64,000 nt of DNA from Ruegeria arenilitoris (GTDB lineage: Bacteria; Pseudomonadota; Alphaproteobacteria; Rhodobacterales; Rhodobacteraceae). The position numbers and the translations under genes are program-made. Location: assembly GCF_013035315.1 (NCBI RefSeq), contig NZ_WQHP01000004.1, forward strand, positions 1-64,000. The letters run 5' to 3'. Of the stretch, positions 8,599-14,473 are shown one piece after another. The notes beneath the pieces were generated by a model that searched no databases, had not been told where the DNA came from, and worked only from the letters and a program-made list of their open reading frames with translations. Every line of letters starts with the position of its first letter. Position 1 is the stretch's first letter.

Positions 8599-9609
8599 TT
8601 ACTGAGAGCTGGCGGTCCTGAACCCGGCCTCCACGAGTGCCGAGTACAAGCAATGACGAGAGCGCCCCTGACGCTTCGCCTCATACAGCGCTTGATCCGC
8701 GGCGTTTAGCAGCTCTGCCGCATCCGGAGTTTTGAATTGCGTGGACAAGGCCGTGCCGACACTGGCCGAGATTTGGCACGGTGTCCCCTGAAACATCATG
8801 GGTTGCCGCAACCGATTGATCAGGCGCACAGCGATGTCGGACAGGACAACTTCGTCCACAAGGCCCTTGAAAATGATGACAAATTCATCACCGCCAATGC
8901 GGGCGACAGTTTCGTCGTTCCGCGTCTCCTCCTCCATGATGCGAGCGGCCTGTTGCAGCACGAAATCCCCTGCTGCATGGCCCAAACGGTCATTGACGCT
9001 TTTGAAGAAATCCAGATCCAGATGCATCATTGCAAAGGCGGAACCGCTTGAGATCAGGTAACCGAGAACCATGTCCATTGCCCGGCGGTTCTTTAGCCCC
9101 GTCAGCATGTCGGTGACCGCCTGTTCTTCGGCTGCCAGCATGGCGCCCTGCAATCGCAGGTTCAACGAACGCGATGCCTCCATCGCGGCCGACTTTGCCT
9201 CAACCAGGTAAAGCAGTTCGATAGCGAGATCCGTTCCCGAGAAGTCCGCGCTGGTCAGAGCGTAATCCCGCACCGCGTCCAGAATCGAAATCCCGAAAGA
9301 CAGGTTAATGATGGCCCCATCGCCGTCGGGCAACGGCGCGATGAGCCCCTTCAGTGCGGTCCGGGGTTCGTCGTGAAACCTCAGATGCACTTTCCCCCCG
9401 GCCAGCGACAACAATGCTGGAATGGTGGTTACCGTTCGGGGCCGAACCAATTCAAAAATATCCAGGAACGCCCGACCTTTCATAGGCTCATCGGGCCGTA
9501 GTTTTTGCACTGTCGGTCCGGCGTTTACGATATTACCTGCGCTATCCACCATCACGAACATGGGGCACAAGGTTTCCAAAAGCGTCGACAGGTCTGCGGT
9601 ATCCATCAT
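8599..9609 (-). CDS. HNOBA-GGDEF diguanylate cyclase
   Basis: The protein has 336 residues and no membrane segment or signal peptide. Residues 1-165 fit the H-NOX-associated HNOBA domain: a PAS-like part (MFVMVDSAGNIVNAGP) then the connecting helix containing FGISILDAVRDYAL and DLAIELLYLVEAKSA. Residues 170-330 form a GGDEF domain with DMLTGLKNRRAMD, LDLDFFKSVND and an intact ARIGGDEF near residue 235. It should make c-di-GMP from two GTP. The inhibitory I-site reads RNDE instead of RxxD, so product feedback may be weak. The start overlaps the H-NOX stop (ATGATG over TGA), so the two proteins are probably made together and act as sensor and output. Confidence 0.88.
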   Translation of the reverse strand: MMDTADLSTLLETLCPMFVMVDSAGNIVNAGPTVQKLRPDEPMKGRAFLDIFELVRPRTVTTIPALLSLAGGKVHLRFHDEPRTALKGLIAPLPDGDGAIINLSFGISILDAVRDYALTSADFSGTDLAIELLYLVEAKSAAMEASRSLNLRLQGAMLAAEEQAVTDMLTGLKNRRAMDMVLGYLISSGSAFAMMHLDLDFFKSVNDRLGHAAGDFVLQQAARIMEEETRNDETVARIGGDEFVIIFKGLVDEVVLSDIAVRLINRLRQPMMFQGTPCQISASVGTALSTQFKTPDAAELLNAADQALYEAKRQGRSRHCLYSALVEAGFRTASSQ

Positions 9610-10193
9610 GCCCCTCGCGCCCCAAGATCAAAATGCCGTCCTTCGGCGAACGCACTCTCGACCAGAACAATGGTGATCACTTCCACATCCCCCTGATGCC
9701 CCTCATGCGACAGCATAGCTAAAGCACCATAGTCATCGGCCACCGCCCGCAGCACACCCACCATCACGCTGGCATAACCCGGCAGGCCCGGATAGCAGTG
9801 CAATTGGTATTCCGCCGGAGACACCTCGCGCAGTTCCAGTACCGGCAAACGCAAGTCCGAAACCGCTAGCCTGGCGCGGTCCGACAAATCATCGAGGGAA
9901 TGCAGAAACTCGACATATGTCACGCCTCCAAACCGCAACAGGCGCCGTAAACCTTCCATGTTGGGGTGCGAGACGAGATAAGTCCCTAGATCCTCAAGTA
10001 TCTCGGACTGAGGACGATTGAGGTCCGCCGACAGCGCATCCAGAACGCGCGTGGTCATCGAATCCTCATAGATCAGCATCGCCTCAAACTCGGTAAATCC
10101 CAGACCAGCTGACTCAGTTACACGCAGCCAGCAGGATTGCCCGTAGGTCGCGCAGACAAAGGACTGAATCGCCCGATTGATCAGACCATGCAT
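9606..10193 (-). CDS. H-NOX-like protein lacking the heme ligand His
   Basis: The protein has 195 residues, the family length. MHGLINRAIQSFVCATYG matches the H-NOX N-terminus, and LIYEDSMT and LGTYLVSH follow in order. Against mammalian guanylyl cyclase beta1 the segment EFLHSLDDLSDRARLAV aligns without gaps to EFLQNLDALHDHLATIY, so the heme-ligating His105 is Ser104 here. The YxSxR propionate motif (YYSER) is CYPGL. All four hallmark heme residues are therefore changed while the fold signature and frame are intact. In the family H-NOX binds NO through heme and controls a coupled cyclase or kinase. I infer a heme-free version controlling the coupled HNOBA-GGDEF gene. His98, six residues away, is an unlikely substitute ligand. 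Confidence 0.88.
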   Translation of the reverse strand: MHGLINRAIQSFVCATYGQSCWLRVTESAGLGFTEFEAMLIYEDSMTTRVLDALSADLNRPQSEILEDLGTYLVSHPNMEGLRRLLRFGGVTYVEFLHSLDDLSDRARLAVSDLRLPVLELREVSPAEYQLHCYPGLPGYASVMVGVLRAVADDYGALAMLSHEGHQGDVEVITIVLVESAFAEGRHFDLGARGA

Positions 10194-10202
10194 AGGATGC
10201 CC

Positions 10203-10226
10203 CAGATTGGTTTACACCCCAATCTG
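10203..10226 (-). promoter_or_regulatory. Perfect inverted repeat in the leader of the H-NOX gene
   Basis: CAGATTGG, 8 bases, then CCAATCTG form a perfect 8-bp dyad ending 9 bases before the ATG at 10193. As RNA it would be a stable hairpin directly beside the weak ribosome site GGGG. As DNA it would be a 24-bp operator. Either could control the H-NOX/GGDEF pair. The rest of the 120-base gap to the next gene holds nothing else I recognise. Confidence 0.5.
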
Positions 10227-10314
10227 CTCAGACAAACCTTAACAAATAGCCAAGGAGCGCTCTCAAATTCCGACAATACAACCGAGTGTCAGTCTGGAAG
10301 CCTTTGCATTTTCA

Positions 10315-11874
10315 CTAAAAATCCGTCGGCGCTCCGCCCTCAGCCTTACGGCGGGCGACAAAATCGGCCAGTTCGTCGCGGATACCGTCATCCATCGGCG
10401 GAGCCTCAAAACTAGTGACAATCTCTTTGAACATGTGGTGGGCGCGTTCTGCCGTCCAGATACCGCCCGCCACGTCCCAACCTTCGTAGTTTTTCCAGTC
10501 GCTCAGGAACGGCTGATAAAACGCCGTGGTATAGCGATCCTGCGTGTGCTGAATGCCGAAGAAATGGCCATCGTTCCCAACGGATTTGATCGCGTCCAGC
10601 GCGATTTCATCCGGGCCGGTCGCCGTGATCTCGGGCTGCATGTACCGCTGGATTTGCTGCAGAATTTCGCAATCCATAATGAATTTCTCAGGGCTGGCGA
10701 TCAGACCACCTTCCAGCCAACCGGCAGCGTGGTACACCATATTTGTACCCGACTGCACCGCCGCCCAAAGCGAATTGGACGTCTCCCATATCGACTGTCC
10801 GTCCGGCACGTTTGCCGCACAAACACCTGACGAACGCATCGGAAGGCCATAGTAGCGCGCCATTTGGCCGGTCATTTGAGTTGAGCGCATATACTCGGGG
10901 GTTCCAAAGGCAGGCGCGCCGGATTTCATGTCAACGTTGGACGTGAACGTCCCAATAACGCAGGGAATTCCGGGCCGGACGTATTGGAACAGGGCAATCG
11001 CGCACAAGGCCTCGGCCAGCGATTGCGCCACCGCCCCGGCCATAGTCACGGGTGCCATTGCCCCCGCCAGCGTGAACGGTGTCACGACAATCGCCTGACC
11101 ACGCCGCGCAAGGCGCAGGCACCCGTCGATCATCGGGTGGTCGTGCTTTAGCGGCGAGGTCGAGTTGATGTTGGTGTACATGCGCGGAGTCGCTTCGAAC
11201 TCCTCATGGCTCAGGCCACCGGCGATCCGCACCATCTCCATCACGTCTTCAACGCGCTCTTTGCCCAGCGAATAAGCATGCATGGCCTTATCGGTCAGCG
11301 TCAGCTTGTCATAGAGCACATCCAGATGCCGGACGCTGGCATGAATGTCGACCGGCTCGACCGGGTAGCCGCCCGCGAAATGGATGCAGTTAAAGTACTG
11401 CGTCAGTTTCAGCAGGTTCCGGCACATCTCACGGTTCCCCGCGACCTTGGTGCCGATTTCAAGATCCCAATAATTCGGTGGGGACGACACGTTGCCGAAC
11501 AGCAGTGTTTTGCCCCCCACCTCAATTGTCTTGTCCGGGTTGCGCGGCGTGATGGTAAAGCTGGAGGGCGCTTTGCCGATCATCTCCATCACAAAATCGC
11601 GGCCCATCCGGACGTTGTCGCCGGAGATGGTGCAGCCCGCTTCTTTCAAGATGCCGATGGCTTCTTCGTTGTAAAACTCGATACCGATCTCTTCGAGGAT
11701 GCGCATGGCCCCTTCGTGGATCGCTTCGATCCCGGCCTGATCCAGAGGTTCCGTGGGTTTGTCGATATTGATCGGCGGGTTCCACGGCATCTGGTCGATC
11801 ACCGCACTGCCTCTGCGGGCAGCCGCACCGGCCCGTCCCCCACCGCGACGTTTGCGTGTCTGTGTGTCAGCCAT
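10315..11874 (-). CDS. MttB-family (trimethylamine methyltransferase-like) protein
   Basis: The protein has 519 residues. After a basic Gly/Arg-rich N-terminus it reads as COG5598/MttB: a TIM-barrel methyltransferase with GAMRILEEIGIEFYNEEA, FTITPRNPDKTIEVGG and VSSPPNYWD. True trimethylamine methyltransferases use pyrrolysine at an in-frame UAG. This frame has none, so it belongs to the Pyl-free group, where one characterised member (MtgB of Desulfitobacterium) demethylates glycine betaine. Roseobacters degrade methylated quaternary amines, but the substrate is unknown. No corrinoid protein or methyltransferase partner lies next to it. The start is ATG 11874, with GGAGGG about 6 bases upstream, rather than the earlier in-frame ATG at 11907. 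Confidence 0.85.
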   Translation of the reverse strand: MADTQTRKRRGGGRAGAAARRGSAVIDQMPWNPPINIDKPTEPLDQAGIEAIHEGAMRILEEIGIEFYNEEAIGILKEAGCTISGDNVRMGRDFVMEMIGKAPSSFTITPRNPDKTIEVGGKTLLFGNVSSPPNYWDLEIGTKVAGNREMCRNLLKLTQYFNCIHFAGGYPVEPVDIHASVRHLDVLYDKLTLTDKAMHAYSLGKERVEDVMEMVRIAGGLSHEEFEATPRMYTNINSTSPLKHDHPMIDGCLRLARRGQAIVVTPFTLAGAMAPVTMAGAVAQSLAEALCAIALFQYVRPGIPCVIGTFTSNVDMKSGAPAFGTPEYMRSTQMTGQMARYYGLPMRSSGVCAANVPDGQSIWETSNSLWAAVQSGTNMVYHAAGWLEGGLIASPEKFIMDCEILQQIQRYMQPEITATGPDEIALDAIKSVGNDGHFFGIQHTQDRYTTAFYQPFLSDWKNYEGWDVAGGIWTAERAHHMFKEIVTSFEAPPMDDGIRDELADFVARRKAEGGAPTDF

Positions 11875-11994
11875 AGGAACCCTCCGGAACTTGCTTTTTA
11901 CAAGCAAGCCCCGAAGTCAGAAAGATCGCCGCTCTATCTGCGACAAGGTTTGTCGGTTTTTTATTCCGGACCGTCGAAATCGGTCCTAAGCGGA

Positions 11995-12690
11995 TCAGTT
12001 AGCGTCCAGCCAGGCGGGGATATGGCCAATATCCGGCAGCACTGCATCCGCCATCGGCGCCAAAGCCTCGGCCGGAGCCAAGCCGGTCAAAACTCCGATT
12101 GTCGTCATACCCGCCGCGCGGCCCGCTTGCAGATCATGTAGACTGTCGCCCACCATCGCCACGCGCGAGGGATCGACGCCGACATGCGAAGCAAACGCGA
12201 TCAACTGGCCCGGTCCGGGTTTGAACCCATGCCCGCTGTCATACCCGGCGACAAAATCAAAGTGGTCGCGGATGCCCACCGACGCGAGGTGCTGCAGAGC
12301 GGCCACCTCTCCGTCATTTGTGGCAACCCCAAGTTTGAGCCCGGCTTTTCGCAGGCCGTCCAGAAAGGGGATCAGTGGTACAGCCGGAGCTTGCGGAGCA
12401 GTGGCTGATTCCGTGATCAGGACATCAGTCAACTCATCACGTGCCATGTCGGGGAAGTGTGGGATCAAGGCTTCGGTGATTTCGTCGACCGTGCCTGCAA
12501 TGACAACGCTGTCGCGTGAGTATTCCTCGGTCACCGGATCAAAACCGATAGCTTGGCCAAGAACAGCGACGCGTTCGGGATCACCACCCGACAGTTTCTC
12601 GAGCACGGAGCGACCAAAACTGCCCCATGTGTTCGCAAAATCAAACAGTGTTCCGTCCTTGTCGAACAAGATCGCGTCGATGGGCATCAT
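11995..12690 (-). CDS. HAD-family phosphatase (phosphoglycolate phosphatase-like)
   Basis: The protein has 231 residues. The catalytic motif is LFDKDGTLFD (nucleophile Asp10, acid Asp12), followed by a helical cap. Motif II is LGVATND, motif III Lys is in HGFKPGPGQ, and motif IV is VAMVGDSLHDLQAGRAAG. The motifs are complete, so it should be an active Mg-dependent phosphatase on a small phosphorylated metabolite. It is a different branch from the gph-like gene at 50476. Two ATGs (12690, 12687) follow AGGAG, and the first is reported. Confidence 0.85.
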   Translation of the reverse strand: MMPIDAILFDKDGTLFDFANTWGSFGRSVLEKLSGGDPERVAVLGQAIGFDPVTEEYSRDSVVIAGTVDEITEALIPHFPDMARDELTDVLITESATAPQAPAVPLIPFLDGLRKAGLKLGVATNDGEVAALQHLASVGIRDHFDFVAGYDSGHGFKPGPGQLIAFASHVGVDPSRVAMVGDSLHDLQAGRAAGMTTIGVLTGLAPAEALAPMADAVLPDIGHIPAWLDAN

Positions 12691-12997: not shown

Positions 12998-13084
12998 AAA
13001 GCGGCCTCGGACATGCGCTTGGAAAGGGTTTGTTAACCAGACTCATAAACACTTTGGCAACGCATGCAATCAACGGTGACTGAT

Positions 13085-14473
13085 ATGTCCGTGCAGGGAA
13101 CTATCCTTGTCCTCGTCGGGACTTCGACCAATCGCATAATGCTGAAGGTTCAGCTGACGGCGGCGTGGTATCACGTCGTTCAGGGCGACCGCCTGCATGG
13201 TCTGGCCGGACTGTTGCGTCGCACGCGACCTGATCTGATTCTGGCCGCCCAGACATTGCCCGACGGCACCGCTGCGGACGTCAAACGGATGGTGATGGCC
13301 GACCCTGATATGGTCGATGTTCCTGTTGTTGCGATTGCTCCGCAAAATGACAAGACGGCGCGCCTGAACGCTCTGGCCGATGGGCTGGATGACGTACTGG
13401 CCCGCCCTTTCAAGGACACCCTGCTGCTGGCCCGCGTGCGCAGCCTGTTGCGGTCTCGCGCCGAAACGCAGGAATTAAAGCTTGGAAGCGGGTCGCAGCC
13501 CATCGGATTTGCCGAGCCTGCCGCCGCGCTGATCTCGCCCCCTAGGTCAGCCCGAGTCGCCATTCTGGCGCAAACAGCACGCACCGGTGCGCTGTGGATG
13601 AATGCGCTGTCGGGGAGGCTGCACCATAGCCTTTCGACACATGCGTCATCCAATCTACAAGCCCTGTTGTCAGGCCCAGTTGCGGACGCAATCGTGGTCG
13701 AAGTTGGCAAAGCCACAGTGGGGTTGAGCACGCTGGCCGATCTGAAGTCGCGCGGGGCAACGCGGAACACGGTCTTGATTGCAGTGGTGAACGAAAACGA
13801 CACGTCCCTCGCATCCGAAGCGCTGGACCGTGGGGCAGACGCCGTCTGTATAGGCGGGTTCTGCGTCGAAGAGGTCTTGTTGCGTCTGGAAAACCAGATC
13901 GCACGGAAAGCCCGCACAGATCAGATGCGCGCGACATTGCGTCTAGGGATCGAAGAATGCTGGATCGATCCGCTGACCGGGCTGCATAACCGGCGCTATG
14001 CCATGCAGGCTATGGATCAGATGGCCAGAAAGCCTTCACGCAATGGCCGCGGTTTCGTGGTTATGCTGGCCGACCTGGACCATTTCAAAGCCATCAACGA
14101 CCGCTTTGGACATGTGAGTGGGGATCAGGTTCTTACCGAAGCTGCAAAGCGTATGGAGCACACGGTCGGATCCGGGGGGTTCGTCGCCCGCATCGGGGGT
14201 GAAGAGTTCATGATCGGCCTACCCAACAGCTCTGGCGACGAAGCGATGGATCTGGCCAAAACCTTGCGTGATTGCATCAGTAAAACGCCGTTTACATTGG
14301 CGGACACCGAAACCCCGGTTCCAGTGACCATCAGTATTGGCATGACGTCACCAAACCCGCCCCTTCCCCAAAGCGAACCGCTGGAGCGATTGATCAAGTC
14401 TGCCGACAGTGCGCTTTATGCCGCGAAGAAGGCCGGGCGAAATCAAGTCAGGGTCAGGCAGACCGCCGCCTGA
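13085..14473 (+). CDS. PleD-like diguanylate cyclase with degenerate receivers
   Basis: The protein has 462 residues and the architecture REC-REC-GGDEF. The first receiver aligns with Caulobacter PleD, but the acidic pair (DD) is Val11-Gly12, the phospho-acceptor Asp is Ala55 (PDLILAAQTLPDG), and the switch Lys is Arg (LARPFKD). The second receiver (about 160-280) has VVEVG at the acceptor position. The GGDEF half is intact: DPLTGLHNRRYAM, ADLDHFKAIND and ARIGGEEF near residue 371. The I-site Arg and Asp positions read GSGG, so it is absent. Activity should be independent of phosphorylation. ATG 13085 has GGTGA upstream. ATG 13064 is an alternative. Confidence 0.87.
   Translation: MSVQGTILVLVGTSTNRIMLKVQLTAAWYHVVQGDRLHGLAGLLRRTRPDLILAAQTLPDGTAADVKRMVMADPDMVDVPVVAIAPQNDKTARLNALADGLDDVLARPFKDTLLLARVRSLLRSRAETQELKLGSGSQPIGFAEPAAALISPPRSARVAILAQTARTGALWMNALSGRLHHSLSTHASSNLQALLSGPVADAIVVEVGKATVGLSTLADLKSRGATRNTVLIAVVNENDTSLASEALDRGADAVCIGGFCVEEVLLRLENQIARKARTDQMRATLRLGIEECWIDPLTGLHNRRYAMQAMDQMARKPSRNGRGFVVMLADLDHFKAINDRFGHVSGDQVLTEAAKRMEHTVGSGGFVARIGGEEFMIGLPNSSGDEAMDLAKTLRDCISKTPFTLADTETPVPVTISIGMTSPNPPLPQSEPLERLIKSADSALYAAKKAGRNQVRVRQTAA

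Follow-up and report, generated by a model that had tools for sequence, protein, structure and literature searches.

What can an H-NOX protein do for the diguanylate cyclase encoded next to it once the histidine that holds the heme is gone? The question is raised by a gene pair of Ruegeria arenilitoris (Rhodobacteraceae) that lies in a window of 64,000 nucleotides, the whole stretch of DNA analyzed here (contig NZ_WQHP01000004.1, positions 1 to 64,000). The features on which the argument rests are the following:

9606..10193, minus strand: H-NOX (HNOB) gene, 195 aa, His-less, Group 5 type
9882..9884, minus strand: codon 104, TCG (Ser), at the column of the proximal heme ligand
9783..9797, minus strand: CYPGL, residues 133-137, at the position of the YxSxR motif
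8599..9609, minus strand: partner diguanylate cyclase, 336 aa, with a PAS-like N-terminus, a helix (128-164), and a GGDEF domain whose GGDEF motif is intact
9606..9609, minus strand: ATGA overlap of 4 nt between the H-NOX stop and the cyclase start
10315..11907, minus strand: upstream gene of the MTTB family (trimethylamine methyltransferase), a common neighbor

A conserved H-NOX relative with serine for the heme-holding histidine

The window gene is a real, conserved H-NOX relative in which Ser takes the place of the heme-holding His. Its reading frame runs from 10193 to 9606 with no internal stops, and the HNOB domain of Pfam covers residues 2-156 (E 2.8e-24; 86.3 bits, with the cut-off at 25.5); a search of NCBIfam with the protein gave no match. 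The AlphaFold2 model (mean pLDDT 90.2, pTM 0.85) has Nostoc H-NOX structures as its top Foldseek matches (TM 0.80/0.85; 2o09, TM 0.80), and both profile score and fold place the protein in the H-NOX/HNOB superfamily. The best match in the PDB is 4iae, by its entry title an H-NOX with BAY 60-2770 bound. The genome carries a single H-NOX copy.

When the protein is aligned with PDB sequences by phmmer, its segment EFLHSLDDLSDRARL pairs with EFMENLDNLHARVGL of Nostoc Alr2278, which puts Ser104 at the proximal His (LDDLS opposite LDNLH). Further along, HCYPGL lies opposite HYQSTR, and the Tyr, Ser, and Arg of the motif are replaced by Cys, Pro, and Leu. A profile built from 64 relatives reproduces this register, and pairwise alignments with 42 canonical H-NOX sequences show His opposite Ser104 in 38 cases; the other four have Leu (2), Phe (1), or Gln (1), the last presumably being the Gln-bearing canonical row L062. 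A misalignment at column 104 was considered and rejected on the agreement of phmmer and profile, with 4 of the 42 pairwise alignments lacking a His there. Both marks of a canonical heme-binding H-NOX, the proximal His and YxSxR, are absent.

The first-pass annotation of this DNA, made from the letters alone, had proposed exactly this placement of Ser104 and CYPGL in a protein of intact frame, length, and fold, and the alignments, the uninterrupted 195 codons, and the model bear it out. Its statement that every heme hallmark is lost holds for the proximal His and YxSxR but is slightly too strong, because a heme-contact proline and two glycines remain. P117, which we take to be the heme-abutting proline of canonical H-NOX (P115 of Tt H-NOX), is invariant among 134 representatives of the clade described below and in all 42 canonical rows. 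The window protein also keeps G70, present in 134/134 clade representatives, and G146, present in at least 80% of both the clade and the canonical sets; these two are presumably the hinge glycines of the literature.

The altered ligand position is shared by the entire genus as far as it was read. The gene occurs in 37 of 37 genus genomes, that of the window included, with 72-97% identity in the other 36, and the same search of 24 genomes of other families gave no match at E 0.001. Of the 30 loci read from the 37 genomes, 24 have Ser and 6 have Ala at column 104, which is encoded only by TCN and GCN codons, all 24 Ser being TCN. A sequencing error was rejected as the source of the missing His, since Ser or Ala stands in all 30 loci and the codons vary. 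What stands in place of YxSxR is conserved as well: 29/30 loci have C133 and 30/30 have L137. Columns invariant in these 30 loci amount to 87 of 190 overall and to 13 of 19 in the ligand-bearing helix (columns 94-112). The median dN/dS (Nei-Gojobori) is 0.072, with a maximum of 0.165, among the 53 of 435 pairs with dS of 0.1-1.5, a figure that is rough because dS is high (median 1.25, near saturation). By this rough measure the gene is under purifying selection, as the first-pass annotation had supposed. Intact fold, purifying selection, and conserved coupling to a diguanylate cyclase together argue for a functional rather than a decaying gene.

Loss of the histidine across the Rhodobacteraceae

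HNOB matches of any kind are present in 296 of the 394 genomes of the family examined and in 14 of 289 genomes drawn from across the class, 4 of those 14 belonging to the window's family. In a tree of 150 representatives, a branch with 99% SH-aLRT support separates 134 clade rows from 16 canonical rows; rows had first been sorted by the letters YSR/YSN, so that the sorting itself accounts in part for the lack of YxSxR in the clade. The window protein and the H-NOX of Paracoccus denitrificans (L258, NZ_CP141053.1), which has Pro at column 104, fall on the clade side, the placement of the latter being less sure on account of long-branch warnings. Scores against the window protein give the same division: among loci L061-L120, clade members reach at least 109 bits (a piece of the broken gene L072 reaches 65.6), and canonical members reach at most 77.6 or do not match. 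The 127 clade genes counted exclude L070 (canonical-type) and the broken L072, and L173, which has no profile match, was excluded from the counts. Dinoroseobacter shibae, whose H-NOX/Dgc1 pair (Dshi_2815) is reportedly the subject of Bedrunka 2018, is absent among the best 80 of 568 matches in the contig scan.

Mapping the ligand column over homologs, a check that the first-pass annotation had proposed, reveals how widely the His is missing. Among 97 intact clade genes of other genera, which are the higher-scoring rows listed and under-sample weaker relatives, column 104 is Pro in 69, His in 13, Arg in 4, Gln in 3, Asn in 2, Ser in 2, and Thr, Glu, Tyr, or Lys in 1 each; of the 42 canonical rows, 41 carry His and one carries Gln. 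With an entropy of 1.94 bits, column 104 ranks 109th of 190 columns in the clade; in the canonical rows its entropy is 0.16 bits. The 134 clade representatives were chosen with His-bearers first, and the 21 His among them are no frequency. Judged by these sequences, the exchange of His for Ser is neither an error nor unique to the window, and His-less versions are common in the Rhodobacteraceae. The import of one odd gene was rejected, given that the clade is family-wide. Clade columns that correlate with His are confounded by ancestry and play no part in the argument.

Ser was probably not the first replacement. The nearest relatives in other genera have Pro (14/15) or Asn (1/15) at column 104, and because of this preponderance, and because the TCN codons of Ser are one base away from the CCN codons of Pro, Pro was probably the residue that gave way to Ser or Ala in the genus; His would have preceded Pro, going by the canonical outgroup. 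Within the clade, parsimony counts 14 changes of His, of which only 3 are forced by well-supported branches. With 81 of its 147 inner branches unresolved, the tree does not fix the order of the losses.

The first-pass annotation knew of no description of such a variant, yet one is in print. A network seeded with the P. denitrificans H-NOX yielded a fifth, very large cluster, named Group 5, in which the proximal His is present in “fewer than 10%” and mostly replaced by Pro, the Gly hinges are kept, no Cys is conserved, and the H-NOX gene overlaps or adjoins a GGDEF gene (Lee-Lopez & Yukl 2022, section 10; PMC8738867). Passages of an earlier paper already state that the H-NOX proteins of P. denitrificans and R. 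sphaeroides lack the axial His (PMC5588039). The window protein is a further member of Group 5: it clusters on the P. denitrificans side, its His is replaced, its hinge Gly are kept, and a GGDEF gene overlaps its own. The P. denitrificans protein (Pden_3719), of the same clade, agrees with it in the absent His, the kept hinge Gly, and the overlapping or adjacent GGDEF gene. The window's genus differs from Group 5 as published in having Ser/Ala, not Pro, in having a conserved CxPGL for YxSxR, and in conserving Cys133. The frequency of Cys133 (75/134 clade representatives, 29/30 genus loci) qualifies the published absence of a conserved Cys. Among the open-licence literature, no study of a Ruegeria H-NOX of the His-less type was found, and no passage on H-NOX was found in the SqrR paper or in an alphaproteobacterial census of c-di-GMP proteins.

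The partner cyclase and its surroundings

The coupling of the H-NOX gene to a GGDEF cyclase, claimed in the first-pass annotation, is apparent from the ATGA overlap in the window and recurs throughout the clade. At 206 of 210 clade loci, a frame bearing GGDEF begins between -60 and +120 relative to the H-NOX stop, and a start at -4 is available at 149; the 210 loci mix overlapping collections and are not independent, the script favored starts nearest -4, and the motif GG[DE][EQ][FL] was required for counting a partner, so that 149 and 206 are not blind counts. Three of the four misses lie at contig ends (L076, L119, and L160), and the fourth (L086) has its cyclase further downstream. With that motif required, it reads GGDEF in all 206 partners found. 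Across the 394 family genomes, the cyclase N-terminus and an H-NOX of any kind occur together in 283, H-NOX only in 13, the cyclase only in 2, and neither in 96.

The PAS-like N-terminal domain of the window's cyclase matches HNOBA (PF07701) just over the cut-off, and HNOBA is present in 40 of the 48 partner cyclases scanned. The model of the cyclase (pLDDT 93.9, pTM 0.66) consists of PAS-like strands, the helix, and the GGDEF domain, and its best Foldseek match is a PAS-GGDEF-EAL protein (TM 0.47). The I-site of the window's partner reads RNDE; RxxD is found in 203 of 206 partners, and the window's is among the three exceptions.

In soluble guanylyl cyclase, the order of domains is H-NOX-PAS-coil-cyclase. 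On sequence and model, an H-NOX chain followed by an HNOBA/PAS-helix-GGDEF chain is the same order in split form. The beta1 subunit matches the window H-NOX at E 2e-11 and unites H-NOX, HNOBA/PAS, and cyclase, which the window divides over two genes; it is a heme-dependent cGMP cyclase, whereas the window's partner carries GGDEF. A natural fusion of H-NOX and cyclase within the clade was looked for and rejected, since no clade gene exceeds 260 aa and the long frames of L082, L085, and L102 extend upstream of the start. Nostoc Alr2278 has the same fold and, unlike the window protein, both His and YxSxR, and the H-NOX of Shewanella woodyi and Hnox1 of Legionella presumably have both as well. The latter two share with the window protein the fold and the regulation of c-di-GMP enzymes, and passages of PMC8846402 list NO sensing via heme for them.

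The neighborhood offers several further observations. The order HAD hydrolase, MTTB, H-NOX, GGDEF (8599-12690, minus strand) recurs on a Phaeobacter plasmid (L260), and an MTTB match occurs at 61 of 97 other-genus loci, some of them incomplete, in 60 cases upstream on the same strand. GGDEF and MTTB are among the neighbor-family abbreviations in a legend of PMC8738867, where the group is not stated; in Paracoccus ferrooxidans, the upstream gene is ComEC-like instead of MTTB. A second diguanylate cyclase (receiver + GGDEF; 13064-14473, plus strand) lies about 3.5 kb from the partner, and the DgcA and DgcB of P. denitrificans, as described in passages of PMC5588039, are the same two kinds as this pair. 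Six of the 42 canonical rows (L031, L032, L040, L161, L162, and L170) are likewise followed on the same strand, within 1.5 kb, by a match to the partner cyclase that may rest on the GGDEF domain alone; two genomes of the window's family, G354 (L031) and G064 (L032), match the partner's N-terminus (E 1.7e-21 and 1.5e-6). The window's genome also encodes one FIST-domain protein (E 1.2e-43; entry headed G000:C1:785334-785921 (-)), possibly an NO sensor of the NosP type that could serve where H-NOX does not.

Restraint or sensing without the proximal ligand

The reading preferred here, to which we give a probability of about 0.5, is that this Group 5 H-NOX, having lost its proximal ligand, serves the adjacent PAS-GGDEF cyclase as a regulatory subunit and probably as its brake, and does so without a His-ligated heme. 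The H-NOX would dock on the PAS or helix part and hold the cyclase down. NO activates a canonical H-NOX through cleavage of the Fe-His bond, to which the title of one cited reference also points. An H-NOX that has no such bond may therefore resemble the activated form and would sit in, or easily reach, the signaling conformation. The brake would then be set by the amount of H-NOX or by a non-heme input, not by NO acting on a His-ligated heme.

The preserved pairing of H-NOX and cyclase and the intact cyclase motif favor this regulatory role, and so do two relatives studied in vivo or with NO. In P. denitrificans, whose His-less H-NOX gene overlaps dgcA, passages of PMC5588039 report that the hnoX mutant forms less biofilm and a mutant without both cyclases forms more, from which the authors infer that H-NOX inhibits DgcA; in passages of a later study, the hnox mutant is again deficient in biofilm, with c-di-GMP below detection (PMC12582929). 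The D. shibae H-NOX, a His-bearing relative in the clade, is reported to detect NO and to inhibit Dgc1 (passages of PMC7232146 and PMC8846402). A purely constitutive brake is disfavored by the model of the P. denitrificans authors, in which NO acts on DgcA via H-NOX and also independently of it (in the same passages of PMC5588039), as this favors an NO-responsive protein.

The genome that carries L121 (G095) is that of D. shibae DFL 12, as 4000 bases of its second contig are identical to NC_009955.1 at matching coordinates. The D. shibae protein (L121) resembles that of the window in clade and gene pair, is 44% identical to it, and has likewise lost YxSxR, but it has kept the His (LDDLH) and is listed as an NO sensor with heme as its cofactor (in a part of PMC8846402). 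The loss of YxSxR is therefore no proof that heme is lost. Since D. shibae has His and P. denitrificans Pro, however, NO sensing reported for one Group 5 protein cannot simply be transferred to those without His.

It is unlikely, although several lines of evidence lean that way, that the window protein still binds heme through another residue or the pocket alone and senses NO as other H-NOX proteins do. The fold and the heme-contact proline are kept, and an H103G variant of H-NOX among the Foldseek matches (2kil) has, by its entry title, a structure in the Fe(II)CO state, so that an H-NOX without the His is able to retain heme in vitro. The D. shibae sensor and the NO model for P. denitrificans point in the same direction, and Cys133, which stands at the former Tyr position in 29/30 genus loci, could serve as a ligand. 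A shared ligand at column 104, however, cannot explain a clade in which this position is P, H, S, A, R, Q, N, T, E, Y, or K, and Cys133 is present in only 75 of the 134 representatives.

An extension of the brake to the whole family is tentative and rather improbable: in the family as a whole, an NO sensor would have become a protein brake that is constitutive. The loss of His would fix the conformation that NO normally induces by Fe-His cleavage, and the cyclase would be restrained by the abundance of H-NOX or by a novel ligand other than heme. A minority of the genera, to which D. shibae belongs, would retain the ancestral control of this cyclase by NO.

It is doubtful that the empty heme cavity binds some other small molecule, hypothetically a lipid, a quinone, or a tetrapyrrole precursor, that switches the cyclase. 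Such a ligand would fit the strong conservation of the remaining fold, in which 46 of 190 columns are at least 80% conserved in the clade yet unlike the canonical majority (two of the 46 have no canonical letters), and the drug bound in the best PDB match, but the conserved columns may equally be contacts with the partner.

Decidedly improbable is a sensor of redox state or nitrosation that works through Cys133 or another thiol. Its precedent is the H-NOX of Vibrio cholerae, which responds to oxidants in vitro without heme, and Cys133 is nearly constant in the genus. The Vibrio protein, however, has the His, and its mechanism needs a zinc site with three Cys (passages of PMC7108781); the window protein has no His, and its clade, in which only columns 11 and 133 have Cys in more than 30% of the representatives, conserves no three-Cys site. 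Nor does Group 5 as published conserve a Cys (PMC8738867). A pseudogene in progress is strongly disfavored by the dN/dS of 0.07 and the 87 invariant columns, and although one genus copy (G029:C2:183908-184490) is split over two frames, the match in another (G018, L008) begins only at residue 8, and an other-genus copy (G331, L072) has an in-frame TAA, the remaining genus genomes have no stop and match over nearly the full length.

Labels of the “heme NO-binding” kind often sit, in this family, on proteins without a heme ligand. How an H-NOX without the His senses anything is a question already posed for Group 5 (PMC8738867). To it, the census adds a contrast within one clade and with the same kind of cyclase partner: the His-bearing and reportedly NO-responsive protein of D. 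shibae and the His-less protein of P. denitrificans, which has a phenotype in vivo. With this contrast, a single column could serve to tell which mode is the default, sensing through heme or a brake without it.
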